Of a stretch of DNA of 64,000 nt, positions 4,978-25,413 are shown one piece after another. The notes below the pieces were generated by a model, which saw nothing but the letters and a program-made list of their open reading frames with translations, had not been told where the DNA came from and searched no databases. This stretch comes from Stutzerimonas stutzeri (GTDB lineage: Bacteria > Pseudomonadota > Gammaproteobacteria > Pseudomonadales > Pseudomonadaceae), in NCBI RefSeq assembly GCF_024448985.1, contig NZ_JAMOII010000012.1, positions 1 through 64,000 of the forward strand. The letters run 5' to 3'. Each line of letters opens with the position of its first letter. The first letter of the stretch is position 1. Both the position numbers and the translations under genes were made by a program.

Positions 4978-6450
4978 ATGAAAAAGCTCGTACTCGCCGT
5001 TGCCGTACCCCTGGCCCTCATCGGTGCCGCCACTGTTTACACCAGCACCCAGGTCGAATCGACCGCGCGCAATGCCGTCGACCAGGCCAATATCAAGCTG
5101 CGCGAGATGAGCATCGGCGGGGGTGCCGGCGCCAACCTGAAGCTGCTCAGCTTCGAACGCGGGCTGCTGTCCAGTGACGCCCGCTACCAGATCGACATCG
5201 AGGTGCCCGATGACGAGGGCAACACGCAGCAGTATTCGCTGCTGTTACAGGATCACCTCGAGCATGGCCCGTTTCCGGTCTCGCGTCTGGCGCGAGGCCG
5301 CTTGATGCCCGTCGCCGCCCAGAGCCACGTCAAGCTCGAGCGGACGCCGCTGACCGAAAAGCTGTTCGAAGCTGCCTCGGGTGAAATGCCGCTAGTAGGC
5401 GATGTGACCATTGGCTACGACGGCCGCCAGCACGGCGAGCTGCGCTCGGCTGCCTTCAACGTCGCGGACGAAGAGGGCACGCTTCGTGTCTCGCCCGGCA
5501 CCGTCACCTTCGAAGCGGCAAAGGACGCCACCGCGTTTCGTATGGACGGCGAACTGAAGGACGTCGATCTCAACCTGACCGGCACTGCCAGCAAGCCGGT
5601 ACGGATGAGCATTCGTGGCATCAGCATGTCCGCCGACAAACAGGAGGATGCCAACGGCTTCGCCCTTGGCCCATCAGCCGTTACCGTCGAGCGCATGGAC
5701 ATTCAGGTCGGTGAGGCCCCCGCCGTGGTGATCCAGAAAGCCTCCATCGATGAAATGCTGGGCCGCGGCACCCGTGGCCTCGACCAGACCGTTGCCTACC
5801 GCATCGGTCAGGTGGAAGCCAGAGATCAAACCTTCAGCAACGTCGCCCTGGCGTTCAGCCTGCGCCACCTCGAAGACGCAAGCCTCAAGGCCCTGGTCGA
5901 GAGCTACAAGGCTATTCTCGAAAGCGGCCCCAGCCAGGAGGACGCCCTTGCCAACATGAGCGACGCCCAGCAGAGCGAACTGCAAGCTCAGGCGATGCAG
6001 CTGCTCAAGCACAAGCCCACCCTGGCGCTCGACGAGTTCGGTTTCGAGACCGCTAACGGTGTCGCCCGTCTGTCCGTCGTGCTCGATCTGCAAGGGCCGG
6101 GCGAAGGCGCCGTTGATCCCTTCGCGATGATCACCAGCGCGCTCGCTTCGCTCAAGGCCGACGCCGGTATCGACAAAGGCCTGGTGCGGGACGTTGCCGG
6201 TCTGATCGTGCGACATCAGGGCGATGAGACGGATCCGGTTGCGCTGCAGCAGGAAACCGATGCCGCCACCGATCTGTTCAGCGGCATTGCACTCAACGCA
6301 GGATGGTTCCAGTTACAAGGCGATCGCCTGGCCAGCTCCCTGCACTACACCAATGACAAGGTCACGTTGAACGGCCGCGAGATGAGCGTGCAGGAATTCA
6401 TCGGCTTTGCGTTTGGCTCGGCACAGGGCGCGGGCCTTCTCGGGCAGTAA
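4978..6450 (+). CDS. YdgA-like DUF945 family protein
   Basis: A protein of about 490 residues beginning MKKLVLAVAVPLALIGAATVY, a single N-terminal signal anchor, followed by a long periplasmic region. The pattern of an N-terminal anchor followed by LLSFERGLLSSDARYQIDIEV is characteristic of DUF945 (E. coli YdgA type), whose biochemical role is unknown. An in-frame ATG nine bases upstream (4969) is an alternative start. The gene is followed directly by a good intrinsic terminator and reads towards the nucleotidase gene. Confidence 0.8.
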   Translation: MKKLVLAVAVPLALIGAATVYTSTQVESTARNAVDQANIKLREMSIGGGAGANLKLLSFERGLLSSDARYQIDIEVPDDEGNTQQYSLLLQDHLEHGPFPVSRLARGRLMPVAAQSHVKLERTPLTEKLFEAASGEMPLVGDVTIGYDGRQHGELRSAAFNVADEEGTLRVSPGTVTFEAAKDATAFRMDGELKDVDLNLTGTASKPVRMSIRGISMSADKQEDANGFALGPSAVTVERMDIQVGEAPAVVIQKASIDEMLGRGTRGLDQTVAYRIGQVEARDQTFSNVALAFSLRHLEDASLKALVESYKAILESGPSQEDALANMSDAQQSELQAQAMQLLKHKPTLALDEFGFETANGVARLSVVLDLQGPGEGAVDPFAMITSALASLKADAGIDKGLVRDVAGLIVRHQGDETDPVALQQETDAATDLFSGIALNAGWFQLQGDRLASSLHYTNDKVTLNGREMSVQEFIGFAFGSAQGAGLLGQ

Positions 6451-6474
6451 GTACCGGGCCAGCACGTAAAAAAT

Positions 6475-6496
6475 GCGACCTTCGGGTCGCCTTTTT
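6475..6496 (+). terminator. Intrinsic terminator, probably bidirectional
   Basis: Stem GCGACC/GGTCGC with loop TTCG followed by five T residues. A run of A residues just before the stem gives a T-tract on the other strand as well, so it could also stop the convergent nucleotidase gene. Confidence 0.85.
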
Positions 6497-6555
6497 CATT
6501 CAGCTGCCGGGCGCAAGGACGTGAATCCGCTGCTGCCCGGTCCGCCTGAAGCTGC

Positions 6556-8367
6556 TCAATCAACCCGCATGATGCGCCCTTCCACGTTGCCGCTGAAAGG
6601 TTGCGGCAGCGTCTCGATGTAATCCACCAGCGCATCCAGATCCACCGGTCCAACGACGCGGTTGGTGCCTTCGGTGAGCACGGCGAAGTTGTCGCCGCCG
6701 CCGGCTAGGAAGGAGTTGACCGTGACGCGGTAAGTTGCCGCTGGGTTGATCAGCACACCGGTCGCATCACGCATCTCGATCACACGGTTGCCTACGGGGC
6801 GGCTGGCCGACCAACTGTACTGAATGCCGGAAGGCTTGAGCAGACGAGGGTAGCTCTGGCCGATCCACTGCTGTTCGAGCATGGTCTTGAGCTGTATACC
6901 GGTCAGGTCCATGGAGACGAGATCGTTGGCGAACGGCTGGATGGCAAACAGCGCGCCCCAGCTGACTTCCCCACTGGCCAGGTCCGCTCGAATACCGCCC
7001 GGGTTCATGAAGCTTATCTGCGCTTCGGTGGCCACGCGCTGGGCGTCGGCAATCAGATTGCCCAGGGCGGATTCGCCGGCCGGCGTCTCGGTGCGGGTGA
7101 TGTCGCCCTGAGCCAGGCCTACCACGCGCTCGACCAGCGGTTTGACGCGTGCATCGGCCTGCGCCACCAGCGCCGCGACTTCCGGGTCTGGTGATAACCC
7201 GGTGCCTTGGTCGGCCCAGGTAGTGCGCACGACGGCTGACTTCTCGACGATGTCCCGGCTGCGGCGGCTGACCACCAGCTCGATATCGGCATAGGCGGTG
7301 CCGGCCGAAAACGCCTGGGTCACGAGAATCGGCTTGCCGTTGGCGTTGGGTACCAGGGCGTTGGTAAACCCGTGAGCGTGGCCGGAGAGAACCACGTCCA
7401 CCTCGTCGTCCAGGCGTTTGATGATGTCGACTACCGGGCCGGTTACCGTGTCGGCTTCAGGGTTGGTCGGGCCGTCATAGCTGGTCTGCTGGCCGCCCTG
7501 GTGCAAGGCGACGACGATGGCGCGCACGCCGTGGCGACGCAGTTCGGCCACGGACTGGTTGATGGCATCCGCTTCGTCGATGAAGCGCAGGCCGGCAACG
7601 CCGCTAGGCGAGACGATGGATGGCGTTTCCTTCAGCACTGCGCCGATGATGCCGATCCTCACGCCGTCGCGGTAATAGATGGAATAGGGCGGCAACAGGG
7701 ACTCGCCGGTGGATTGGTCGATCACGTTGCTCGAAACCATGGGAAAGCGTGCGCCTTGCCATGATTCTTCGAGGAATGGGCCGTTGCGATGAGTGCCGCC
7801 CGTGTGCAGGCGCAGCAGTTCGGCGCGGCCATCGTCGAACTCATGGTTACCGAGAGTGCCGATCAGATTGCAGCGCTGTTGAGCGAAAGGCTGCACGCTG
7901 CGAGGCATCTGCATTTGCCGGCTGAAGGGCCGGCAATGCGGGTTGGCCAGCAGGTTGAAGAAGCTGATGGAGGGTTCGTCTTCCAGCAAGGCCGAATTCG
8001 GCGGCGAGGCGCCCACCTGATCGCCGTCGTGAACGATGAGCGTGTTGTCGTTGCTCGCCGCCTTCAGGTACGCCGCCAGCACGGCTGCGCCACCTGCCGG
8101 TCGACCGGCGACCGTTCGCGGGGAGAGCTGGCCGTGAAAGTCGTTGATGCTGAGCAGGTTGAGCGACACCACCGGCTCGGGGCGCCAGGCCGGATCTCGC
8201 CAGCTGCGGCGCTCGGCAGCCTGCTGGCGAGCCTTCAGGCCCTCCAGCTGCTCGTCACGATAATCCTGCTCGATGGAGCCGTGCTCGATTTGTACTTGTG
8301 CGATCGCCGGGGCAGCGATGCCGGCCAGGGTAGCGGCTAACAACCAATCCAGTATGCGCGTACGCAT
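6556..8367 (-). CDS. Periplasmic 5'-nucleotidase / 2',3'-cyclic phosphodiesterase family
   Basis: A 603-residue exported enzyme with signal peptide MRTRILDWLLAATLAGIAAPAIAQ (cleavage near residue 24). The calcineurin-like metal-binding motifs occur in order: NDFHG (D76, H78), HDGDQ (about 114-117), GNHEFDDG and LSGHAHG. The C-terminal 5'-nucleotidase domain contains the substrate-clamping aromatic region and the LAGGGDNF segment. UshA-type enzymes release nucleosides and phosphate from extracellular nucleotides for scavenging. The length matches the family. No Pho-box-like repeat was obvious upstream. Confidence 0.9.
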   Translation of the reverse strand: MRTRILDWLLAATLAGIAAPAIAQVQIEHGSIEQDYRDEQLEGLKARQQAAERRSWRDPAWRPEPVVSLNLLSINDFHGQLSPRTVAGRPAGGAAVLAAYLKAASNDNTLIVHDGDQVGASPPNSALLEDEPSISFFNLLANPHCRPFSRQMQMPRSVQPFAQQRCNLIGTLGNHEFDDGRAELLRLHTGGTHRNGPFLEESWQGARFPMVSSNVIDQSTGESLLPPYSIYYRDGVRIGIIGAVLKETPSIVSPSGVAGLRFIDEADAINQSVAELRRHGVRAIVVALHQGGQQTSYDGPTNPEADTVTGPVVDIIKRLDDEVDVVLSGHAHGFTNALVPNANGKPILVTQAFSAGTAYADIELVVSRRSRDIVEKSAVVRTTWADQGTGLSPDPEVAALVAQADARVKPLVERVVGLAQGDITRTETPAGESALGNLIADAQRVATEAQISFMNPGGIRADLASGEVSWGALFAIQPFANDLVSMDLTGIQLKTMLEQQWIGQSYPRLLKPSGIQYSWSASRPVGNRVIEMRDATGVLINPAATYRVTVNSFLAGGGDNFAVLTEGTNRVVGPVDLDALVDYIETLPQPFSGNVEGRIMRVD

Positions 8368-8690
8368 TTGCGAATCCTCGGGGCGGGGGGTTCGACCGAA
8401 ATTAGGAAGCGCAGGTGGCAGGTTGATGACCGCTTGTTGGCGTTTTGGCGCGAGGCGACGTACGGACGACTTCAGCTGAAGTTTTGGGTTTCAGGGCGTG
8501 GTTATGGTTGATGTGGAACACCGTCCAGCCACCCCTTGCCGCTGCGATGGGCGCTGGCGCGCAGATCTTGGTCGCAGCGAAGAACTGATCTAGACAGGCG
8601 CGTCTTGATGTCATCCGTCGCGGGTCGCGCCTGGCACCGAACGCTCACAGCGGGCGCCCGGTCGGTATTACTAACCACCGGGAGATAACG
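8368..8690. other. Intergenic region between divergent genes
   Basis: About 320 bases between the nucleotidase gene (minus) and the small membrane protein gene (plus). It should carry both promoters. I see no repeat, hairpin or convincing operator in it. Confidence 0.5.
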
Positions 8691-9182
8691 ATGACGATAT
8701 CCAGCGATCTGTTTTGGGGCGCCCTGGCGCTCGGCGCGGTGACCGGCATGCGCAGCATGTTGGCACCCGCGATGGTCAGCCGTGCGCTTGCCGCGCGTGA
8801 CGACGTGGATGAAGCGGACGAGCCGGCGCGGACATTGGCCTCGCACCGGGCCCAGCAGTTTCTGATGCCAATGGCTGCTGCCGAATTATTGGGCGACAAG
8901 ATGCCTTTTGCGCCGGACCGGACCATTGTCCCTTCGATGATGTTTCGTGCGGTATCGGGTGGCGTGACTGCGGCGGCGTTAGCCAGCGCAAGGCGTGAGC
9001 CGGTTTGGCTGCCAGCGCTCATCGGCGCGACGGCGGCACTGATCGCATCCGAAATTGGGCTGAAGTTACGCAAGCCCTACCAGAGCAACGCGCTGGACAA
9101 TGCCGCGCTGGGGCTGACCGAAGATGCCGTGGCATTCGCGATGGGGAGCGCTGGAATAAAGCGAGCGTTAGGCGAACGGTGA
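8691..9182 (+). CDS. DUF4126-like small membrane protein
   Basis: A 163-residue protein with several short hydrophobic segments and the GLxTGMRSMLAPA-type start typical of DUF4126 proteins (here ALGAVTGMRSMLAPAMVS). A glycine/alanine-rich C-terminal helix follows the LGLTEDAVAFAMGSAG segment. A GGAG ribosome-binding site precedes the ATG. The family is widespread and uncharacterised, and the gene appears monocistronic. Confidence 0.65.
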   Translation: MTISSDLFWGALALGAVTGMRSMLAPAMVSRALAARDDVDEADEPARTLASHRAQQFLMPMAAAELLGDKMPFAPDRTIVPSMMFRAVSGGVTAAALASARREPVWLPALIGATAALIASEIGLKLRKPYQSNALDNAALGLTEDAVAFAMGSAGIKRALGER

Positions 9183-9422
9183 AGGCGAAAGGCTGAGATT
9201 ACGGACGGCTGCGGTGAATAGAGCGACGCCGTCTCCAGCTTATGGAATAGGCCGGCTGCGATGATCAAAGCAGGGTGCACAGTGGCAAGTTCGCCCGCAC
9301 GATTGTTCAGGGTGTTCGCTTGCAGATATCACTGGGCGAAGCGATACCAGCCGGATGCCGGGCCCTTGAGTTTCACGTTCTGTTTTTAAGGCGTGATCGG
9401 CAGTTTACTCAGCCGGTTTGCT

Positions 9423-9447
9423 CACGGGCCGCTTTGTGCGGCCCGTG
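9423..9447. terminator. Strong GC hairpin at the 3' end of the stress-type gene
   Basis: A perfect ten-base-pair stem CACGGGCCGC/GCGGCCCGTG with a TTTGT loop, 17 bases past the stop of the minus-strand gene at 9464. There is no clear T-tract on either side, so termination is probable but not certain. Confidence 0.45.
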
Positions 9448-9463
9448 TGCTGCCGCTGGTTGA

Positions 9464-10303
9464 TCAGCTTGGTCGGCGAATCACACAAACGCGGTCACTG
9501 CAGGTCCCCGCCTGGCTGGAGGCCGTGTCCTGCATCGCATCGTGGGTGGCGACGGTTTCACCAGCCAGGCCGCCACCAGTCGGCGATGCGGTGGCGGTGG
9601 TTTCCGGATAGTCAGTCCCGGCACGTTTAGCAGCACTGCCGAAATCATACTGGCTGGTATCGGCAATGCTGCTGTCGGCATGGTCGGTCGCTGCGGTATG
9701 GGTGGTGTGGCTGGTACCTACGGCGCCGCCCATCGGAGTCCCGGTATCGAGATGACCACTGCCGGCATGCCGCGCATCAGCGGAGGTCGTGGTCGAGGTC
9801 GCAGTGGTTCGTGTCCCCGCGAAGTGCTTGTCCAGATGGCTGTCGCCGCCGGTCGCACCGGCGTAGGGGCTGGTAGGCCCAGCGTAGCCCGTCGTGGCGC
9901 TCGTACCGCTGGCACCGGCTCCGTCCCCGTCGATGCTGATGGCACCGTTGTATTCCAGTGCATCGCGCGCTTTGATCAATTGATCCTCGTCGTACACGTC
10001 GACTGCGATCACCAACGAGCCTCGGCGCACCGCTTCCGGGTAGGCCGTGGCGTGGCGGCGGTGATCGTCGTGCGGCTCATGGCCGAATAGCGACTTGAAG
10101 AAATGGGCGACCTTCGACTCGTGATGCTCACGGTCAACGGTGCTATCGGTGGTGGAGTAAGGCTCATCGTAGGCATGGATCTGCGCCGTTTCGGCGCCCA
10201 CGGAATGGATCTGCTCTTGGGCAATGCCCCGAGACATCAGGTCACCCTGGGTCCGGGTGGCGTCGGTCAGCGTTGCGAACGCTGCTACCAATGTGTGTTT
10301 CAT
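9464..10303 (-). CDS. General-stress-type protein with low-complexity Thr/Ala/Gly tail
   Basis: A 279-residue protein. Residues 1-125 form a compact alpha/beta domain (MKHTLVAAFATLTDATRTQGDLMSRGI... then GSLVIAVDVYDEDQLIKARDALEYNGAISID) resembling the general stress protein 17M/YflT fold. Residues from about 128 onward are low-complexity, rich in T, A, G, S, H and D, and look disordered. No signal peptide or membrane helix is seen. A GAGGTG ribosome-binding site supports the start. The family link is a recollection of pattern, not a search result. The 258 bases upstream are non-coding and presumably contain its promoter. Confidence 0.7.
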   Translation of the reverse strand: MKHTLVAAFATLTDATRTQGDLMSRGIAQEQIHSVGAETAQIHAYDEPYSTTDSTVDREHHESKVAHFFKSLFGHEPHDDHRRHATAYPEAVRRGSLVIAVDVYDEDQLIKARDALEYNGAISIDGDGAGASGTSATTGYAGPTSPYAGATGGDSHLDKHFAGTRTTATSTTTSADARHAGSGHLDTGTPMGGAVGTSHTTHTAATDHADSSIADTSQYDFGSAAKRAGTDYPETTATASPTGGGLAGETVATHDAMQDTASSQAGTCSDRVCVIRRPS

Positions 10304-15369: not shown

Positions 15370-16434
15370 CTAACTCGCCAATGCGGTTTCGGTGGTCGCT
15401 GCGACCTTCTCGGCTGGGACTTCCGTCGCGTAGCCCTGCGGATTACGGCTCTGCCAGCGCCAGGCATCGGTGAGCATCGTCAGCAGATCCTTTTCCGCCT
15501 GCCAGCCCAGCTCTTCCCTCGCCTTGGTCGGGTCCGACCAGCATTGCGCGATGTCGCCAGGGCGGCGTGCCTTGAATACGTGCGGCAATGGACGGCCGAT
15601 GACTTCCTCGAATGCGGTGACCATCTGGCGCACCGAGTAGCCACGGCCGGTACCGAGATTCCAGACCGATACGCCGCGAACCAGATCCAGCCGCTCCAGT
15701 GCCTTGAGATGCCCCTTGGCCAGGTCGACGACGTGGATGTAGTCGCGCACGCCGGTGCCGTCCGGGGTCGGGTAGTCGGCACCATAGATGCTGAGCTGCT
15801 TGCGCCGACCGACCGCCACCTGAAGCATGTAAGGCAACAGATTGTTGGGAATGCCGTTGGGGTCTTCGCCGATCAGGCCGGACTCGTGCGCGCCGATGGG
15901 GTTGAAGTAGCGCAAAAGGGCGATCGACCAGCGTGGGTCGGACTCGGCCAGCCCCTTGAGCACGTTCTCGGCCATCAACTTGGACTGGCCGTAAGGATTG
16001 GTCGGAACGCCGGTCGGGCAATTCTCGGTGATCGGCATCCGCGGCGAGTCGCCGTAGACGGTTGCCGAAGAGCTGAACACCAGCCTGAAAATGCCGGCTT
16101 CGGCCATCGCCTGGCACAGCGCGATGCTGCCGCTGACGTTGGTCTCGTAATAGCGCAGGGGTTCGCGCACGCTTTCACCCACCGCCTTGAGACCGGCGAA
16201 ATGCAGCACGGCGGTCACCGGATAGGAGGCGAACAACGCGTTGAGCAGCGACCGGTTGCGTACGTCGCCTTTAACGAACTGCACCTTGCGACCGGACAAC
16301 GCCTCGACTCGGTCCAGCGCTACCTTGGAGCTGTTGCATAAATTGTCCAGCACCAGCACCTCATGGCCCGCCAGGAGCAGCTCCAGCACTGCATGGGACC
16401 CGATGTAACCAGCTCCTCCCGTTACCAGAATCAT
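15370..16434 (-). CDS. galE: UDP-glucose 4-epimerase
   Basis: A 354-residue short-chain dehydrogenase-type epimerase that interconverts UDP-glucose and UDP-galactose. The NAD motif GGAGYIGSH lies at residues 6-14, and the catalytic YGQSK (Y-x3-K) in NPYGQSKLMAE follows a conserved SSSATVYGD. The ATG at 16434 has an AGGTGG ribosome-binding site and begins the canonical MILVTGGAGYIG. It is divergent from the glycosyltransferase-glf operon 590 bases away, and could supply the UDP-galactose that Glf converts. Confidence 0.96.
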   Translation of the reverse strand: MILVTGGAGYIGSHAVLELLLAGHEVLVLDNLCNSSKVALDRVEALSGRKVQFVKGDVRNRSLLNALFASYPVTAVLHFAGLKAVGESVREPLRYYETNVSGSIALCQAMAEAGIFRLVFSSSATVYGDSPRMPITENCPTGVPTNPYGQSKLMAENVLKGLAESDPRWSIALLRYFNPIGAHESGLIGEDPNGIPNNLLPYMLQVAVGRRKQLSIYGADYPTPDGTGVRDYIHVVDLAKGHLKALERLDLVRGVSVWNLGTGRGYSVRQMVTAFEEVIGRPLPHVFKARRPGDIAQCWSDPTKAREELGWQAEKDLLTMLTDAWRWQSRNPQGYATEVPAEKVAATTETALAS

Positions 16435-17021
16435 GTTTCCACCTCGCGTGAGAATTCTTTCGACGCGCACGGAGACTGCGGCTGGCCGTATGAGCGCGGT
16501 CGCTGCATGGATCTCCAGGGTTGGGTTCGGCGAACCGGGCGGTGCTACTGCGAGAGCACGCTGCGCCGGTGCCGGGGTAAATCATGCGTCCTGAGATAGG
16601 GACGGGAGAGTTGCGGCCAAGTTCCAACGAGACGACCGCCAGCCGATGACCGACCGCTTTGCTGTGGTAGCACGTGATTGAAAAGAGTTTGGTTAAGGCG
16701 CAGCGATCCTCAGGGCTGTAGTCACAGGTGAGCCGATGCGCGAGCGCCGTAAGTGAATGCTCGAAAGGCGCGGACCAGAGGCAGCGGACGGGCGTTCAGC
16801 AGCCGCCTTCGACACGGCATTACTGAGCGCTCTCCTGTACAGCAACCCGGCGAAGGGAACCTTGGCTCGTCCGGCGTCGTCCATAGCCCGCGGGCTGCGC
16901 TTGGTACGCCATGAGCGTCATAGGCAGCGAGTCCCGACTTTTTCAGTGTTTGCGCAGGCAGCGCGGGCCAATGCGATGCAGCAGAACGGACTCTGAAGAT
17001 TTCGCGATCCGAGAGGTGTTC
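16435..17021. other. Long divergent promoter region, galE / galactofuranose operon
   Basis: A gap of 587 bases with several open but unconvincing frames on both strands. It should hold the galE promoter and the operon promoter. No REP, hairpin or recognised operator was found. Confidence 0.5.
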
Positions 17022-18206
17022 ATGAGCTGGGCCGGCCCTTATCAATACGAGATTGGAAAATCCCCCGAGAAGCAGGAGACGCCGCCCGAAGTCGTTTTCG
17101 ATGAGCAGGTGCCGACGCTGCTGTGTCTCTCGCATCTTCGCTGGAGCTTCGTCTATCAGCGTCCGCAGCACTTGATGTCGCGATTCGCGCGGGACTTCAA
17201 CGTGCTTTTTTTCGAAGAGCCCATTCCGACCGAGGATGCCCAGCCCTGGCTGGAGGTCCGCCCGGAAGAGAACGGCGTGCAGGTGCTGATTCCACGCCTT
17301 CCTCAGGGCTGCGGCGGCGAGACGGCTTTGCGCGTCCAGCGCGACCTGCTCGATGGTTACCTGGACAAGCTCGGCGTCAACGATCTGATGCTCTGGTACT
17401 ACACGCCGATGGCGCTCGGGTACGCTGGCCATCTGAAGCCCAAGCTCACCGTCTATGACTGCATGGACGAACTCTCCGCCTTTCGCGGCGCGCCGCCCGA
17501 GCTGGTGGAGCGCGAGCGTGAGCTGCTTCAGCGTGCCGACGTGGTATTCACTGGCGGCTACAGCATTTGGGAAGCCAAGCGCGAGCTGCACGACAATGCC
17601 CACGCCTTTCCCAGCAGTGTCGACGTTGCGCATTTCGCCGAGGCCCGCCGGACCCAGGCCGATCCCGACGATCAGGCGGAAATCCCGCACCCGCGGCTGG
17701 GCTTCTATGGGGTGATCGACGAACGCTTCGATATCCAACTGGTGGGCGAAGTCGCCGAGAAGCGCCCTGACTGGCAGTTCGTGCTTATCGGGCCGGTGGT
17801 CAAAATCGACCCGGCGGAGCTGCCACAGCGCGAAAACATTCACTACCTCGGCGGCAAGACCTATGACGAGTTGCCCCGGTATCTGTCCGGCTGGGACGTG
17901 GCGATCATGCCCTTCGCGATGAATGAATCGACACGCTTCATCAGCCCGACCAAAACCCCCGAATACCTGGCCGGCGGTTGCCCGGTGGTGTCCACGCCGA
18001 TCAGGGACGTGGTGCGCACCTACGGTGACACCGAGATTGTCCATATCGCCGACAGCCCCGACGCCTTCATCGCCGCGGTGGAGAGAGCGCTCGTCGATAG
18101 CCAGGACCGTGACCGCCTGTTGAGAACCGCCGACGAGATCCTCGGTGACATGTCCTGGGATCACACCTCGGCCCTGATGAAGGAGAAGATGCAATGCGCG
18201 ATCTAA
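17022..18206 (+). CDS. Glycosyltransferase, GT-B fold, TuaH-like
   Basis: A 394-residue cytoplasmic glycosyltransferase. The N-terminal LSHLRWSFVYQRPQHLMSRFAR and the C-terminal STRFISPTKTPEYLAGGCPVVSTPI donor-binding segment are typical of the TuaH-like group often annotated as glycosyltransferase family 1. The ATG at 17022 has a GAGAGG ribosome-binding site; the frame continues upstream without family-like sequence. Its 3' end overlaps glf by 13 bases. Immediate linkage to glf suggests it transfers galactofuranose, but neither donor nor acceptor can be read from the sequence. Confidence 0.88.
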   Translation: MSWAGPYQYEIGKSPEKQETPPEVVFDEQVPTLLCLSHLRWSFVYQRPQHLMSRFARDFNVLFFEEPIPTEDAQPWLEVRPEENGVQVLIPRLPQGCGGETALRVQRDLLDGYLDKLGVNDLMLWYYTPMALGYAGHLKPKLTVYDCMDELSAFRGAPPELVERERELLQRADVVFTGGYSIWEAKRELHDNAHAFPSSVDVAHFAEARRTQADPDDQAEIPHPRLGFYGVIDERFDIQLVGEVAEKRPDWQFVLIGPVVKIDPAELPQRENIHYLGGKTYDELPRYLSGWDVAIMPFAMNESTRFISPTKTPEYLAGGCPVVSTPIRDVVRTYGDTEIVHIADSPDAFIAAVERALVDSQDRDRLLRTADEILGDMSWDHTSALMKEKMQCAI

Positions 18207-19435
18207 GCCTGCGAGACAGCAATCCCGAACACGCAGGCGGTGGCGCCAGCGATCATTCTTCCAGCCGTCGGCGCGGCTTCGACTACCTCATCGTCGGGGC
18301 CGGCTTTGCTGGCAGCGTGCTGGCCGAGCGGCTGGCCGCCGGGCTGAACAAGCGCGTGCTAGTGGTCGACCGCCGTCCGCACATCGGTGGGAATGCCTAT
18401 GATCATTACGACGAAGCCGGCGTTCTGATTCACCGCTACGGCCCACATATCTTCCACACCAACGCCCAGCGCATTGTCGATTACCTCTCGCAGTTCACCG
18501 AGTGGCGTCCCTATGAGCACCGCGTGCTGGCGCAGGTGGACGGGCAGGAAGTGCCGATCCCGATCAACATGACCACGCTGAACAAGCTCTACGGCCTGAA
18601 CATGACCACTGAGCAGGAGGCGGCGGATTTTCTCGCCAGCCGCGCCGAGCCGGTCGAAGACATTCAAACCAGTGAAGATGTGGTCATCAACGGCATCGGC
18701 AGCGAGCTGTATCAGAAGTTCTTCCGCGGCTATACCCGCAAGCAGTGGGGCCTGGACCCGTCGCAGCTGGATAAATCGGTAACCTCGCGCATTCCTACGC
18801 GCACTAATACCGACGACCGCTATTTCACCGATACCTTCCAGCAGATGCCCAAGTACGGCTACACCAAGATGTTCGAAAAGATGCTCGCGCATCCAAATAT
18901 CAAGGTGATGATCAACACCGGCTACCGCGAGATTCGCGATGAGGTACAGCACGACCACCTGATCTTCTGCGGCCCCATCGATGAATACTTCGACTACCGC
19001 TTCGGCAAATTGCCGTACCGCTCGCTGAAGTTCGAGCACAAGCAGCTGGATCAGGAGCAATTCCAGGCGGTCGGCACGGTCAACTATCCGAATGAGGACG
19101 TGCCCTATACGCGCATCAGCGAGTACAAGCACCTCACCGGTCAGGTTCATCCGAAAACCAGCATCACCTACGAATACCCATCGGCCGAAGGCGATCCCTA
19201 CTACCCGATCCCACGGCCGGAAAATGCCGAGCTGTACAAGCGCTACCAGAAGCTCGCCGACGAAACCCCTGGCGTCACCTTCGTCGGCCGCCTTGGCACC
19301 TACAAGTACTACAACATGGATCAGGTCGTGGGCCAGGCGCTGGCGCTGTACAAGCGCATCGAGGAGGCCGAGCGCGGACCGGAGGCCGGCGAGAGCGTGG
19401 AACACAGCCAGTCGTTGGCCGAACAAGCACCCTGA
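18194..19435 (+). CDS. glf: UDP-galactopyranose mutase
   Basis: A 413-residue FAD enzyme that converts UDP-galactopyranose to UDP-galactofuranose. The dinucleotide fold YLIVGAGFAGSVLAERLA lies at residues 31-48, followed by RPHIGGNAYDHYDEAGVLIHRYGPHIFHTN, a signature of Glf, and later FRGYTRKQWG and GRLGTYKYYNMDQVVGQAL. It has about 28 poorly conserved residues before the FAD domain and a C-terminal tail of about 25, making it longer than E. coli Glf. It is translationally coupled to the glycosyltransferase before it. Confidence 0.95.
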   Translation: MRDLSLRDSNPEHAGGGASDHSSSRRRGFDYLIVGAGFAGSVLAERLAAGLNKRVLVVDRRPHIGGNAYDHYDEAGVLIHRYGPHIFHTNAQRIVDYLSQFTEWRPYEHRVLAQVDGQEVPIPINMTTLNKLYGLNMTTEQEAADFLASRAEPVEDIQTSEDVVINGIGSELYQKFFRGYTRKQWGLDPSQLDKSVTSRIPTRTNTDDRYFTDTFQQMPKYGYTKMFEKMLAHPNIKVMINTGYREIRDEVQHDHLIFCGPIDEYFDYRFGKLPYRSLKFEHKQLDQEQFQAVGTVNYPNEDVPYTRISEYKHLTGQVHPKTSITYEYPSAEGDPYYPIPRPENAELYKRYQKLADETPGVTFVGRLGTYKYYNMDQVVGQALALYKRIEEAERGPEAGESVEHSQSLAEQAP

Positions 19436-19448
19436 GACGAGGCGCACG

Positions 19449-20603
19449 ATGTATCAGCCCACGTTGTTCAAGAGTTTTTTTATGGGCGGCTTCGAATGCT
19501 CGAACCACCGCCGTAGCGATGGGCGGCGTCTCGATCTGCTGGCGGCGACCGGCCATGACCGCTGGGCCGCGCATGACTATGGCGTACTCCAGCGCCACGG
19601 TTTACGCAGCGTACGTGACGGGCTGCGCTGGCACCTGATCGAAGGCGCGCCTGGCCAATATGACTGGTCGAGCTTCCTGCCGATGCTGCAGGCCGCACAG
19701 CGGCACGGCACCCAGGTGATCTGGGATCTGTGCCACTACGGCTGGCCTGACGACATCGACATCTGGCGCCCGCAGTTCGTCGAGCGCTTCGCCCGTTACG
19801 CGGCGGCGGCGGCGCAGCTGGTCAAGGATGAAACCGACACGGTGCCCTTCTACGCGCCGCTCAACGAGATTTCGTTCTGGGCCTGGGCCGGCGGCGACGA
19901 AGCCTATTTCAATCCGATGGCGCGCGGTCGCGGCTTCGAGCTCAAGCATCAGCTGGTACGCGCCACCATCGCCGCGATGCAGGCAATACGCGACGTCGAA
20001 CCACGGGCACGTTTCGTCCAGGTCGACCCGGCCATTCACGTAGCGGCGGCCAACGACCGCCCCGGCCCGCAGCGTGAGGCCGAGCGTTTTCGCCAATCGC
20101 AGTTCGAAGCCTGGGACATGCTGTGTGGAGAAATCTGGCCGGGCCTCGGCGGTGCGCCGGAATACCTCGACGTGCTGGGCGTCAATTACTACTCCAACAA
20201 CCAGTGGTATCACGGCGATGGCCGCACCATCGAGCGCGACAGTCCTGACTATCGGCCCTTCAAAGGCATCCTCAGCGAAATATGGCAGCGTTACAAACGT
20301 CCGCTGCTGATTGCCGAAACCGGTGCCGAGGGCGACTTACGCGGCGACTGGCTGCGCTACGTCAGCGAGCAGGCGGGGCTGGCGATGCAGCGCGGTGTTC
20401 CGGTCGAAGGCATTTGCCTGTATCCGGTACTCGATTACCCCGGCTGGACCGACGACCGCCTTTGCCCGGTCGGGTTGCTGGGCTTCCCCGATGAAAACGG
20501 CAACCGCTGTGTGCATGAAGGCCTGGCCGATGAGCTGCGCCTGCAGCAACTGAGGTTCAGCCAGTTCAACGCCTCGCTGCCACTCGCCGAAGCATTGCCA
20601 TGA
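19449..20603 (+). CDS. GH1-like family glycosidase, cytoplasmic
   Basis: A 384-residue TIM-barrel protein resembling beta-glucosidases of clan GH-A. The putative acid/base glutamate is E140 in APLNEISFW and the nucleophile E290 in LLIAETGAEG. These are variants of the usual TLNEP and TENG motifs. No signal peptide is present, so it should act inside the cell, perhaps editing or transferring sugar on a precursor. The ATG at 19449 follows glf by 13 bases; its stop overlaps the next start by four. Confidence 0.82.
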   Translation: MYQPTLFKSFFMGGFECSNHRRSDGRRLDLLAATGHDRWAAHDYGVLQRHGLRSVRDGLRWHLIEGAPGQYDWSSFLPMLQAAQRHGTQVIWDLCHYGWPDDIDIWRPQFVERFARYAAAAAQLVKDETDTVPFYAPLNEISFWAWAGGDEAYFNPMARGRGFELKHQLVRATIAAMQAIRDVEPRARFVQVDPAIHVAAANDRPGPQREAERFRQSQFEAWDMLCGEIWPGLGGAPEYLDVLGVNYYSNNQWYHGDGRTIERDSPDYRPFKGILSEIWQRYKRPLLIAETGAEGDLRGDWLRYVSEQAGLAMQRGVPVEGICLYPVLDYPGWTDDRLCPVGLLGFPDENGNRCVHEGLADELRLQQLRFSQFNASLPLAEALP

Positions 20604-22405
20604 ACGTACCGGCCCAGCCGCCCAAAGCGAAGCCTCAGGAGGCGCCGCTTCCAAGCCGGCCGGTGGCCTTTCTCTGGCATTACATTTGTGGTCGACCGTG
20701 GCATTTCAGCGGCTTACTGGCGCTGATCATAGGCGCCGCCAGTTGTGCGGTGGCGGTGCAGTACGGCATGAAATTGCTGGTCGACGCCATGGCGCAGGGC
20801 GGCTCGGATCGAGGCGCCGCCAACGTCTGGCTTCCGTTGGGGCTTTTCATCAGCCTGATCGTTGTCGAGAACGTGTTCTGGCGTCTCGGCGGCTGGCTCG
20901 GTTGTCGCACGGTGGTGGCCAGCGTGGTGGACATCCGCGTCGACCTGTTCAAGCACCTGACCGGCCATCCGATGCGCTATTTCACCGAGCATTTCGCCGG
21001 GTCGCTGGGTAATCGGATCTCCGCGGTCGGCCAGGCTGCGGGCGCGATCTATGGCGGACTGGCCTGGAAAATCGTCCCGCCGATCGTCGATTTCATCGGC
21101 GCGGTGGTGGTGCTGCTCACCGTCGATGTGCGCATGGCGGTGGCGCTGATCCTGTTCGTCGCCATCGTCGCCGCACTGATCACTGGGTTCGGCATTCGTG
21201 GCCGCTCCAAGCATCAGCGGTTTGCCGCGCAATCGGCGCGGGTCGGCGGTGAATTGGTCGATGCGGTCTCCAACGTCTGGACCATCAAGGCGTTCTCCGC
21301 GCGTGATCGTGAGGCCGAACGCCTGGCTCACGAGATAGGTTATGAAGCCCGCGCCCAGCGCCGCAGCTGGATGTACCTGGAAAAAGCACGGGTGATGCAC
21401 GACATCTGCTTGTCGGTGATGGCCGGCGGCATGTTGATCTGGGCCATCAATCTGTGGATCGGTGGGGAAGTAACCGCGGGTGACGTGGTGCTGGTCAGTG
21501 CACTGACCTTTCGTATCCTGCATGGCTCGCGCGATCTGGCGCTGGCGCTGGTGGATGCTACTCAGCAGATCGGCGCCATCGATGACACCCTACGCATCAT
21601 CGTCCAGCCGCATGGCCTGGAAGACAGCGACGCCCAGCTGTTGCTGGCCGAGGGCGACATCACCTTTGAAAACATCAGCTTCAGCTATCCCGATCGCGGC
21701 GCGGTGTTCGAGCACCTGGACCTGCATATTCCAGCGGGGCAGAAAGTCGGCGTGGTGGGCTCCTCGGGGGCTGGCAAGTCGACGCTGATCAACCTCATCC
21801 AGCGCCTCGATGACGTGAAGGACGGGCGCGTCCTCATCGACGGTCAGGACATCCGTGGCGTCAGCCAGGACAGCCTGCGCGAGAAGATCGCTGTGGTGCC
21901 GCAGGAAACTGCACTGTTCAACCGCAGCATCCGGGAAAACATCCGGTATGGCCGACCTGGCGCCACCGACGAAGAAGTAATCGCCGCCGCGCGCAACGCC
22001 TTCTGCGACGCCTTCATCCGCGAGTTGCCACAGGGCTACGACACGCTGGTCGGCGAACGGGGCGTGATGCTTTCCGGCGGCCAGCGTCAGCGCCTGGGCA
22101 TCGCCCGCGCTTTCCTCAAGGATTCGCCGATTCTGATCCTCGATGAGGCCACTTCGGCGCTCGATACCCAATCCGAAGCCGAGATCCAGGCGGCGCTGAA
22201 CAACCTGGTGCACAACCGCACCGTGGTGGCAGTGGCGCATCGCCTGTCTACGCTGTCGAGCTTCGACCGGATCATCGTGCTGCGTGAAGGACGCATCGTC
22301 GAGGACGGCCCCCCGCATGATTTGCGCGTCCGGGGTGGCGAATTCGATGCGCTTTGGCGAATGCAGGCCGAAGGCTTCAAGCAGCAACCTGATCCGGCTG
22401 TATGA
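20600..22405 (+). CDS. ABC exporter, probably glycan or glycolipid export
   Basis: A 601-residue fused permease-ATPase of the MsbA type. About six membrane helices lie in residues 30-310. The ATPase shows Walker A GSSGAGKST, signature LSGGQRQR and Walker [13 protein letters not shown]. It overlaps the glycosidase gene by ATGA and the KTSC gene by ATGA, so it is part of the same coupled operon. Export or flipping of a galactofuranose-containing product is inferred purely from context. Confidence 0.9.
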   Translation: MNVPAQPPKAKPQEAPLPSRPVAFLWHYICGRPWHFSGLLALIIGAASCAVAVQYGMKLLVDAMAQGGSDRGAANVWLPLGLFISLIVVENVFWRLGGWLGCRTVVASVVDIRVDLFKHLTGHPMRYFTEHFAGSLGNRISAVGQAAGAIYGGLAWKIVPPIVDFIGAVVVLLTVDVRMAVALILFVAIVAALITGFGIRGRSKHQRFAAQSARVGGELVDAVSNVWTIKAFSARDREAERLAHEIGYEARAQRRSWMYLEKARVMHDICLSVMAGGMLIWAINLWIGGEVTAGDVVLVSALTFRILHGSRDLALALVDATQQIGAIDDTLRIIVQPHGLEDSDAQLLLAEGDITFENISFSYPDRGAVFEHLDLHIPAGQKVGVVGSSGAGKSTLINLIQRLDDVKDGRVLIDGQDIRGVSQDSLREKIAVVPQETALFNRSIRENIRYGRPGATDEEVIAAARNAFCDAFIRELPQGYDTLVGERGVMLSGGQRQRLGIARAFLKDSPILILDEATSALDTQSEAEIQAALNNLVHNRTVVAVAHRLSTLSSFDRIIVLREGRIVEDGPPHDLRVRGGEFDALWRMQAEGFKQQPDPAV

Positions 22406-22617
22406 AGCGTGTCGCGGTGTCCTCGCGCAGCCTGCGTTCGCTGGGCTATGACGTCGACGAGCAGGCGCTGGAGGTGGAGTTTCACAACGGCTCGGTCTAT
22501 CGCTACGAGGAGGTTCCGGCTGAGGTGGTGCAGGCGCTGCTCGAAGCGGATTCGCTGGGCCGTTACTTCAATCAGGTGTTCAAGCCACAGCATTACCGCT
22601 ACCGGCGCCTCGAATAA
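22402..22617 (+). CDS. KTSC-domain protein
   Basis: A 71-residue protein, MKRVAVSSRSLRSLGYDVDEQALEVEFHNGS..., which matches the short KTSC domain: an early SS.S..IGYD-type segment, EVEFHNGSVYRYEEVP and LGRYFNQVFK. The domain is of unknown function, and is sometimes linked to lysyl-tRNA synthetase or to nucleic-acid-related proteins. Its start overlaps the exporter stop by four bases, making it the last gene of the operon. Confidence 0.82.
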   Translation: MKRVAVSSRSLRSLGYDVDEQALEVEFHNGSVYRYEEVPAEVVQALLEADSLGRYFNQVFKPQHYRYRRLE

Positions 22618-22682: not shown

Positions 22683-22863
22683 AACGAGGCCAGCGCCACT
22701 GGTGATCTGAAGCACACCCTACTTGCTACTCGTGCCTGCGACTTTCCTTTTTAACGGCTTCGATTGCACCGTTGCGCTGAACTTACGCGCCCCTGCGCGG
22801 GCCTCAATCAGACAGGATGCGTCACCACCGAGCGGAGGCTCTTCAGATCAGAAGGGGAAATCT

Positions 22864-23079
22864 ATGTCGGATCATCACACGTACAAGAAAATTGAAATCG
22901 TCGGCTCCTCGCGCAACAGTGTTGACGAAGCGATTCAGAACGGTATCGCCGAAGCCAGCAGCAAGCTGCAGAATGTCGAGTGGTTCGAAGTGGGCGAAAT
23001 TCGTGGCCACGTCGAGGGAGGCAAGGTCGGACATTTTCAAGTCACGATGAAGGTTGGCTTCCGCCTCGCCGATAGCTGA
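22864..23079 (+). CDS. Dodecin, flavin-binding protein
   Basis: A 71-residue protein that assembles into a hollow dodecamer and stores or sequesters FMN/FAD or related flavins. The flavin-stacking tryptophan is W40 (NVEWFEV) and the conserved glutamine Q59 lies in HFQVTMKVGFRL. The start MSDHHTYKKIEIVGSS is canonical, with an AAGGGGA ribosome-binding site seven bases upstream. It is separated from the KTSC gene by about 245 bases, so it probably has its own promoter. Confidence 0.92.
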   Translation: MSDHHTYKKIEIVGSSRNSVDEAIQNGIAEASSKLQNVEWFEVGEIRGHVEGGKVGHFQVTMKVGFRLADS

Positions 23080-24170: not shown

Positions 24171-24581
24171 TCAGTAACAGTGCTCCGCCTCAGCGCGGGC
24201 CAGTACTTGGTGCTGTTCGTCGCGCAGCCAGCCCTGCGGCGTGAAGCCCAGCGAACGCGCCTGAAACAGGTAGCGCCGCCCGGCCTGGAAATTGTCATAG
24301 CGGATGACCATGGTACAGCGTAGGTATTGGGTTTCGCCGAAGATGCCCATTCCGCCGCTACTGATTTCGAATTCATAGCGCGCTTCGAGTTCATGCGCGC
24401 CGGGGCTGACCTGGAAATAGCGGCCGTCTGGCGTGCGTTTGTCGTCCAGACGATCGGACATAAAAATGTCGCTGGGTTGTGCGGTCAGATCGATCCAGGC
24501 CATGTTCGGATCGGGTGGCGGCAGTGGACTGGCGCAGCCGGAAAGGCCGACGATCAGGAGCAGGACAAATGGCAGACGCAT
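24171..24581 (-). CDS. Small lipoprotein, paralogue 1
   Basis: A 136-residue lipoprotein with signal [16 protein letters not shown] (lipobox LSGC, Cys16). The mature part begins [12 protein letters not shown] and contains [21 protein letters not shown] and [25 protein letters not shown]. The same blocks occur in the next gene, so the two are tandem duplicates. The fold is probably a beta-rich PEGA-like domain. Function is not known. Confidence 0.75.
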
Positions 24582-24859
24582 GGCAGTTCCTCCAGCGGGC
24601 CCCGTCAGCCCATTGCTGCGGCGGTCCCTGTCGAGCCTGAGCCAGATCAGGCCGTGTGACAACTACTGCGCTCGGCCATGCTGCGTTAAGAACAGACTCG
24701 TGCGCGAGTCCGATCAAAATACTCAGCTCGTAACTCGCGTGCGAACCCAGTTCGCTTTCTCGCCTGTTTTGTGGGGCCGCCTAGTTCTTGCCTGACCTTA
24801 GCTCGCTACGTTCTCACACGGCCTGAGCGGCGACGCTTTTACAACGATCTGCAGCTAGC

Positions 24860-25285
24860 TCAGCGGATGGCGACACCGCCGCAGCCGCGTTCGGTGGCCT
24901 TGGCCAGCAGCTGATCATGTTGATCGTAAAGCCGCGCCCAGGGGCGGAAGCCGTAGCCACCGGCGACCAGACGATAGCGGGCGCCGGCATCGAAACCGTC
25001 GTATTCCAGAGTCAGGCGGCAGTCACGTTCCAGTGCTTCGCTGTCGCCGCCAACATTGGCCGGCCCCACCTCGAAGCGGTAGCGCATGCCCAGCTGATGG
25101 CTGCCGGGCGTCACTTGAAAGTATCGGTGATCGTCCAGCGGCCTCGAGTCCACGGCAACGGCCTTGAGTTCGGTTTCGCCACGCGGGGCCAGCTCGATCC
25201 AGGCCTGGTTCGGGTCCGGCTGGGGCATCCACAGGGCGCAACCGCCGAGTGTGGACAGCGCGAGAGCAAGGATCAGGATTCGCAT
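24860..25285 (-). CDS. Small lipoprotein, paralogue 2
   Basis: A 141-residue lipoprotein with signal MRILILALALSTLGGC (lipobox LGGC). It shares with its neighbour PDPNQAWIEL, DHRYFQVTPGSHQLGMRYRFE and YDGFDAGARYRLVAGGYGFRPWARLYD. The gap of about 280 bases between the two copies holds no gene. It is divergent from the aminopeptidase lipoprotein gene. Confidence 0.75.
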   Translation of the reverse strand: MRILILALALSTLGGCALWMPQPDPNQAWIELAPRGETELKAVAVDSRPLDDHRYFQVTPGSHQLGMRYRFEVGPANVGGDSEALERDCRLTLEYDGFDAGARYRLVAGGYGFRPWARLYDQHDQLLAKATERGCGGVAIR

Positions 25286-25413
25286 GACGAGTCTCCACCG
25301 CTGAGGGCGCGGTCTGGCTGCGAAGGCTTGCTGCCTTCGGTGGTTGGGTGGGCTTCGATGTCGTTGTAGGCTCAGCGCATCGACCGAGCAGGTCTTCAAA
25401 TGCGAGCAGGCGT

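Follow-up and report, generated by a model that had tools for sequence, protein, structure and literature searches.

A conserved galactofuranose gene set with a GH1-like enzyme and putative AlgU-type promoters in Stutzerimonas stutzeri and other bacteria

Most work on bacterial galactofuranose (Galf) has concerned O-antigens, capsules and the mycobacterial cell wall. Here we describe a compact locus of Stutzerimonas stutzeri in which galE is divergent from a five-gene operon encoding a glycosyltransferase (GT), the UDP-galactopyranose mutase (UGM) family protein Glf, a protein resembling glycoside hydrolase family 1 (GH1), an ABC exporter and a KTSC-domain protein. The locus lies in a stretch of 64,000 nucleotides, referred to below as the window (positions 1 to 64,000 of contig NZ_JAMOII010000012.1, assembly GCF_024448985.1). 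The closest described systems each resemble one part of it. The GH1-like protein shares its fold and the catalytic NE...E pair with GH1 beta-glucosidases (Thermotoga 1oin, 5idi). Plants make galactolipids under stress with SFR2/GGGT, a protein of the GH1 type (PMC11525325). SFR2 is a galactolipid:galactolipid galactosyltransferase that retains the GH1 domain and its active-site glutamates; it differs in being a chloroplast envelope protein that acts on galactopyranosyl lipids. The exporter is of the same type as the lipid A flippase MsbA, and the best NCBIfam match of the GT is TuaH, of teichuronic acid biosynthesis. The best solved relative of Glf is the UGM 3hdq of Deinococcus radiodurans. 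We know of no UGM or GT partner for SFR2.

A preliminary description of this DNA had drawn galE divergent from the operon with tight joints throughout, and the open reading frames, strands and joints in the window sequence bear it out. galE occupies 15370–16434 on the minus strand; the match to TIGR01179 begins at the ATG at 16434, which is therefore its likely start, rather than position 16470. On the plus strand follow the GT gene (17019–18206, most likely starting at the ATG at 17019, which is kept in relatives), glf (18194–19435), the GH1-like gene (19449–20603), the exporter gene (20600–22405) and the KTSC gene (22402–22617). GT and glf overlap by 13 bases, glf and the GH1-like gene are 13 bases apart, and the last two joints are ATGA overlaps. 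Two observations go beyond the preliminary description: a pair of divergent AlgU-like promoter motifs, and protein fusions in other genomes that place the glycosidase in the synthetic core. We read the locus, with a probability of roughly 55%, as a galactofuranosylation unit, induced by stress, that makes a small glycolipid and in which the GH1-like enzyme would serve in editing or transglycosylation.

Family scores bear out the identities of GalE, Glf, the ABC exporter and the KTSC protein. GalE reaches 451.5 bits against TIGR01179 (cut-off 262.3). Its gene is the only galE above the family cut-off in its own genome and so is not dedicated to the unit. Glf exceeds the cut-offs of both UGM family models, TIGR00031 (417.6 bits, cut-off 303.75) and PF03275 (281.5 bits, cut-off 26.3), and matches 3hdq at 590.9 bits, with the next solved structure at about half that score (308.8 bits). 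These scores assign it to the UGM family, and conversion of UDP-galactopyranose (UDP-Galp) to UDP-Galf is its predicted activity. The GT matches general glycosyltransferase models only (PF13692, Glyco_trans_1_4, 44.3 bits, and two others). Its TuaH-like label holds only distantly: the TuaH model, NF047676, gives 79.2 bits, far under the cut-off of 550, and for that reason a teichuronic acid reading was dropped. The GT, which several lineages have fused to UGM as described below, is the likely user of UDP-Galf. The galactofuranose reading of the gene set is well supported.

The name GH1-like failed on family scores and held on predicted fold. The protein reaches 18.2 bits against PF00232, below the cut-off of 22.6, and also misses the NCBIfam GH1 cut-off. 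Its AlphaFold model (pLDDT 93.3) has the GH1 barrel fold of clan GH-A, and its best Foldseek matches are GH1 beta-glucosidases (5idi, E 1.5e-20, TM 0.75), with low identity, 15–21% among the 50 matches listed. Across an alignment of 45 GH1-like sequences, hand-picked for diversity, R56, H96, N139, E140, Y248 and E290 are invariant. By profile search they align with the GH1 catalytic set; the acid/base and nucleophile glutamates, E140 (in NE) and E290, are present in 45/45. Unlike the beta-glucosidases, the protein has a glycine, Gly332, at the Glu of the GH1 'feW' motif, again in all 45 sequences. That Glu binds the sugar in GH1 enzymes. Given the invariant catalytic set, the GH1 fold and the Glu-to-Gly change, the protein is therefore probably a working retaining enzyme with an altered sugar site. 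No signal peptide was visible by eye in the sequence of its N-terminus.

As the most unusual member of the set, the GH1-like protein served as bait for genome searches. Loci were taken as the best 80 of 257 matching stretches in one-per-species genomes; at least 31 of them come from Stutzerimonas or close relatives, so that counts over the 80 loci are weighted to that genus. The nearest relatives in the public records come from Stutzerimonas, with a 98% identical GH1-like protein in L025, and the loci extend to Pseudomonas, Xanthomonas, Skermanella, Azospirillum, Methylobacillus, rhizobia and others. Counting up to 8 kb from the GH1-like gene, we found the GT in 75 loci, UGM in 70, the ABC exporter in 58, galE in 40 and KTSC in 30. 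The complete six-gene order is present in 29 loci, GT-UGM-GH1-like-ABC in 15 and GT-UGM-GH1-like alone in 13, and these three genes are co-directional in Pseudomonas, Skermanella, Azospirillum, Methylobacillus, Xanthomonas and others. The core unit is thus the GH1-like protein, the GT and UGM; the exporter, galE and KTSC are accessories. Conservation of the gene order had been set beforehand as a test, and the order is kept far beyond close strains. Of the unit as first drawn, the tight operon with its UGM-family enzyme stands; galE and KTSC are local additions, and the exporter is not constant.

Whole genomes give the same association. In the genus, 51 of 56 genomes (this one included) carry the GH1-like gene, and the five without it yielded no full UGM, merely two weak partial matches in one genome. 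In the class the gene is rare (5/369 genomes, two of which are this genome and one congener). Of 398 genomes sampled from the phylum, 13 carried the GH1-like gene and 51 had UGM, 50 of these with scores above the family cut-off. With weak matches counted, UGM occurs in 12 of the 13 genomes with the GH1-like gene versus 39 of the 385 without it, giving a Fisher p of 7e-11, or 3e-8 without the own genus, both uncorrected for relatedness; in two of these 12 (G524 and G779) the Pfam-detected Glf lies on a different contig from the GH1-like gene. Protein distances over 46 loci, hand-picked for diversity, are correlated as well: Mantel r is 0.80 for GH1-like and GT, 0.88 for GH1-like and Glf, and 0.65 for GT and Glf, and 0/999 permutations were as high. 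Recurrence in other genomes shows that the arrangement is more than chance. In favour of an accidental adjacency, with the genes working apart, is a lone GH1-like homologue in two related genomes, with neither GT nor UGM adjoining; the association in 70 to 75 of the 80 loci, the co-occurrence in genus and phylum, the fusions and the correlated distances make this extremely improbable, and we reject it.

Fusions tie the core together more closely. A Rhizobium locus (L088) encodes GT and UGM as a single protein, followed by a GT4-Gfo/Idh-dehydrogenase fusion and then by a GT4-GH1-like fusion, and Sinorhizobium is arranged likewise. The GT is fused to UGM in Sphingomonas, and in Comamonas a GH1-like-GT fusion lies upstream of glf. 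Pantoea piersonii has all three as one protein of 1251 residues, GH1-like, GT and flavoprotein (L111:7992-11747), the last of which has the eukaryotic-type UGMs 4dsg (E 1.3e-45) and 3ute as its best solved relatives. A second genome of the same class as Pantoea, G779, also has GH1-like, GT and a eukaryote-type UGM in one open frame (L133, ~6347-10051). The UGM slot beside the GH1-like protein and the GT is thus filled by the window type, by a type ~38-40% identical (L113, L138, L139) or by the eukaryotic type. Unlike lineages in the same slot suggest that UDP-Galf chemistry, and not merely a flavoprotein, is needed there, and this is the strongest evidence for that requirement.

Deinococcus differs in that its GH1-like domain shares one protein with an acyl-CoA dehydrogenase-like domain (L106:11932-14271; L114:9782-12295). 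In Deinococcus sp. D7000 this fusion is followed by GT and glf, so that GH1-like, GT and glf stand together. In D. radiodurans the fusion gene has a PIG-L deacetylase gene after it, catalase and Dyp-type peroxidase genes lie ~10 kb off, and glf, whose product is 68% identical to the window Glf, sits elsewhere on the replicon searched. A more distant, second GH1-type gene with an RmlD-like reductase domain adjoins GT-glf in Sphingomonas (L112:6421-8661), where GT and glf form one fused protein, and in a genome of the same phylum (L135:7593-9671).

The fusions also bear on what the GH1-like enzyme does. It might be a plain hydrolase that clears mis-made or surplus product as quality control or turnover, for which invariant GH1 catalytic residues in 45/45 sequences would be in order. 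The GH1-like-GT, GT4-GH1-like and GH1-like-GT-UGM fusions place it at the synthesis step instead, and a constant futile cycle within one polypeptide seems implausible; we consider a plain hydrolase somewhat unlikely. A cytoplasmic glycosidase fused to transferases suggests editing or transglycosylation rather than digestion. By analogy with SFR2, the enzyme could be a transglycosidase that carries out transfer between galactolipids.

The exporter gives some indication of the product. Its ABC_tran domain is clear (PF00005, 114.3 bits, cut-off 25), and it scores 374.6 bits against TIGR02204 (cut-off 780.4) and 365 bits against the MsbA model TIGR02203 (cut-off 602). The MsbA of this genome is a separate gene on contig C4, at 806 bits. 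On these two grounds we dropped the lipid A reading: the protein first called MsbA-type is related to MsbA and is not MsbA. A further MsbA-type exporter is encoded at 379-2106 of the window (329 bits to TIGR02203). As the preliminary description had said, the operon proteins, which were the scope of this profile search, include no polymerase or Wzx/Wzy; an O-antigen transport family is likewise absent from them. An MsbA-related exporter, a single GT and no polymerase in the operon together lead us to lean towards a product that would be small and amphipathic.

Two other products deserve consideration. The operon might serve to decorate, with a Galf side group, a lipopolysaccharide or exopolysaccharide whose synthesis genes lie elsewhere in the genome. 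These are the polymers from which bacterial Galf is best known, and a Pseudomonas profundi locus (P. profundi, L059) does have a Wzx-type flippase and a pyruvyl transferase a few genes downstream. We nevertheless judge this improbable, given the single GT, the lack of polymerase and O-antigen transport families among the operon proteins, and neighbours that were mostly non-polysaccharide genes in the annotated regions inspected, a part of the 80 flanks. Alternatively, the product might be soluble: a galactofuranosyl glycoside, serving as a protectant or as a secreted oligosaccharide, which the GH1-like enzyme would recycle and the ABC protein would secrete. A cytoplasmic glycosidase beside synthesis genes would suit the turnover of a soluble pool, the P. 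profundi locus has HAD/trehalose-phosphatase and GH65 genes after the operon, and in 22/80 loci the exporter gene is not nearby. MsbA-type exporters, however, usually move amphipaths, and fusion with GT and UGM would be odd for a purely degradative enzyme, so that we regard a soluble product as doubtful. We continue to favour the small glycolipid.

Aligned galE/GT intergenic regions show two conserved blocks, one per direction, that fit the AlgU consensus. This consensus is GAACTT-N16/17-TCtgA in PMC10651043, where predicted promoters include a TCcaT site and a GAACCT site. The window sites, located by pattern search, fit its boxes and spacing: GAACTT-N16-TCCCT for galE (16598–16624, minus strand) and GAACCT-N17-TCCAT for the GT operon (16857–16884, plus strand). 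The exact pattern for these two sites was written after they had been viewed, so its chance figure is not independent; the loose pattern (GAACYN, 16-17 bases, TCNNH) was chosen with the published consensus in hand, after the alignment had been viewed. The loose motif occurs in 37 of 40 regions in the GT direction (1.9 expected from simulated sequences) and in 35 of 40 in the galE direction (2.5 expected), the window included in both counts, versus 165 of 1728 random 440-base pieces of the same loci. Among named loci, 35/41 have an AlgU-like motif within 300 bases of the GT, compared with 52/490 other upstream stretches of these loci.

In non-redundant sets (24 of 43 sites in the GT direction, with six loci without divergent galE added, and 16 of 35 in the galE direction), GAAC and TC stand at 2.0 bits, as fixed by the search pattern, which leaves the flanking conserved bases free; the spacer of the GT set is mostly at or below 0.5 bits, and the galE set is noisier. 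In 16 other loci from outside the alphaproteobacteria the motif was found in seven (Pseudomonas L049, L050, L051, L055, L056 and L059, and Methylobacillus L067), against a control rate of 5.9%. For the alphaproteobacteria we used an EcfG-like pattern, GGAAC-N15-18-BGTT, based on the motif in PMC6599016. It occurs upstream of the GT in 10 of 18 loci, compared with 13 of 217 for the other genes in these loci; this count leaves out L096 and L102, with an unsuitable upstream stretch, and L081 and L097, with no GT match. We regard the two divergent AlgU-like sites as putative promoters, which would make the unit stress-induced.

A number of observations weigh against this account. To our knowledge there is no biochemistry or product for any member of the set. 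The published AlgU consensus ends in A, whereas the two window sites have T at that position, and some AlgU-like matches are weak. The GT-direction site is missing in 3/40 regions (L075, L077 and L086) and the galE-direction site in 5/40, and a single genus supplies most of the 40 regions, which makes the promoter counts non-independent. In the alphaproteobacteria, 8 of the 18 loci lack the EcfG-like motif. The 22/80 loci without an ABC gene near the GH1-like gene mean that export is not universal. UGM is missing within 8 kb in 10/80 loci: in L074 it lies just past the limit, and of the other nine, eight are in genomes with a full-length UGM elsewhere and one in a genome with weak matches only.

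One genome, G583, carries the GH1-like gene without a Pfam-detectable Glf. It and G779, from one gammaproteobacterial genus, each carry a lone GH1-like homologue, 51% identical, at L131:8236-9396 and L132:7636-9045 respectively, in the same layout of open reading frames. In L131 the lone gene is divergent from a PLD-type (ClsC-like) gene and near MdoG, acyltransferase-3 and glycosyltransferase-2 family genes, an order that resembles opgC-opgGH. The GH1-like family can thus work in other settings, and these lone homologues may act on phospholipids or periplasmic glucans.

The remaining features of the window can be summarised briefly. The KTSC protein at the end of the operon scores 80.5 bits against PF13619 (cut-off 25), and a dodecin open reading frame lies directly downstream (22723-23079), as it does in most Stutzerimonas loci. 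Two adjoining small lipoprotein-like genes of similar layout follow on the minus strand (24171-24662 and 24860-25399), one of which matches TraN of type IV secretion systems at a score below threshold. Rfam (at gathering scores) and tRNA scans of the 64-kb window gave no matches. In some of the other loci, catalases, a Dyp-type peroxidase, a trehalose-phosphatase and PAS histidine kinases are neighbours, seen without a background comparison and suggestive only. Among open-licence papers, none of the matches listed dealt with the gene set or with a characterised member. The main text of two Sinorhizobium meliloti regulon papers has neither 'mutase' nor 'glf', and PMC7278926 lacks GH1, GH2, GH43, GH51, Pseudomonas and Deinococcus as whole words.

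In the mechanism that we infer, GalE would supply UDP-Galp and Glf would convert it to UDP-Galf. The GT would move Galf, possibly with another sugar, onto a small acceptor, most likely a lipid, at the cytoplasmic face of the membrane. The GH1-like enzyme would act on the same product in the cytoplasm, either editing it or transferring glycosyl groups between acceptors, and the MsbA-related exporter would flip this product across the inner membrane. The two divergent promoters of the AlgU type, recognised by an extracytoplasmic function (ECF) sigma factor, would drive transcription, as would EcfG-type promoters in many alphaproteobacteria, and the unit would probably be induced by envelope or water stress. 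The preliminary description thus holds in part: it is correct about galactofuranose, plausible about export and incomplete on the unit, with the small product or glycolipid an inference in both accounts.

A broader and more speculative proposal, which we think improbable as it stands, is that this is a widespread, patchy and perhaps horizontally spread stress system whose GH1-fold transglycosidase, GT and UGM work as one assembly that remodels membranes with a new class of galactofuranosyl glycolipid, as a functional counterpart of plant SFR2. At the level of the main proposal, a small Galf unit outside any obvious O-antigen operon is present in Pseudomonas relatives, rhizobia, Azospirillum and Deinococcus, and its promoter motifs link it with the responses to envelope stress and to general stress. 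The Deinococcus-type mutase, whose structure is solved, gains a candidate biological context, and the triple fusion of Pantoea offers a single protein in which the pathway may be tested in vitro.

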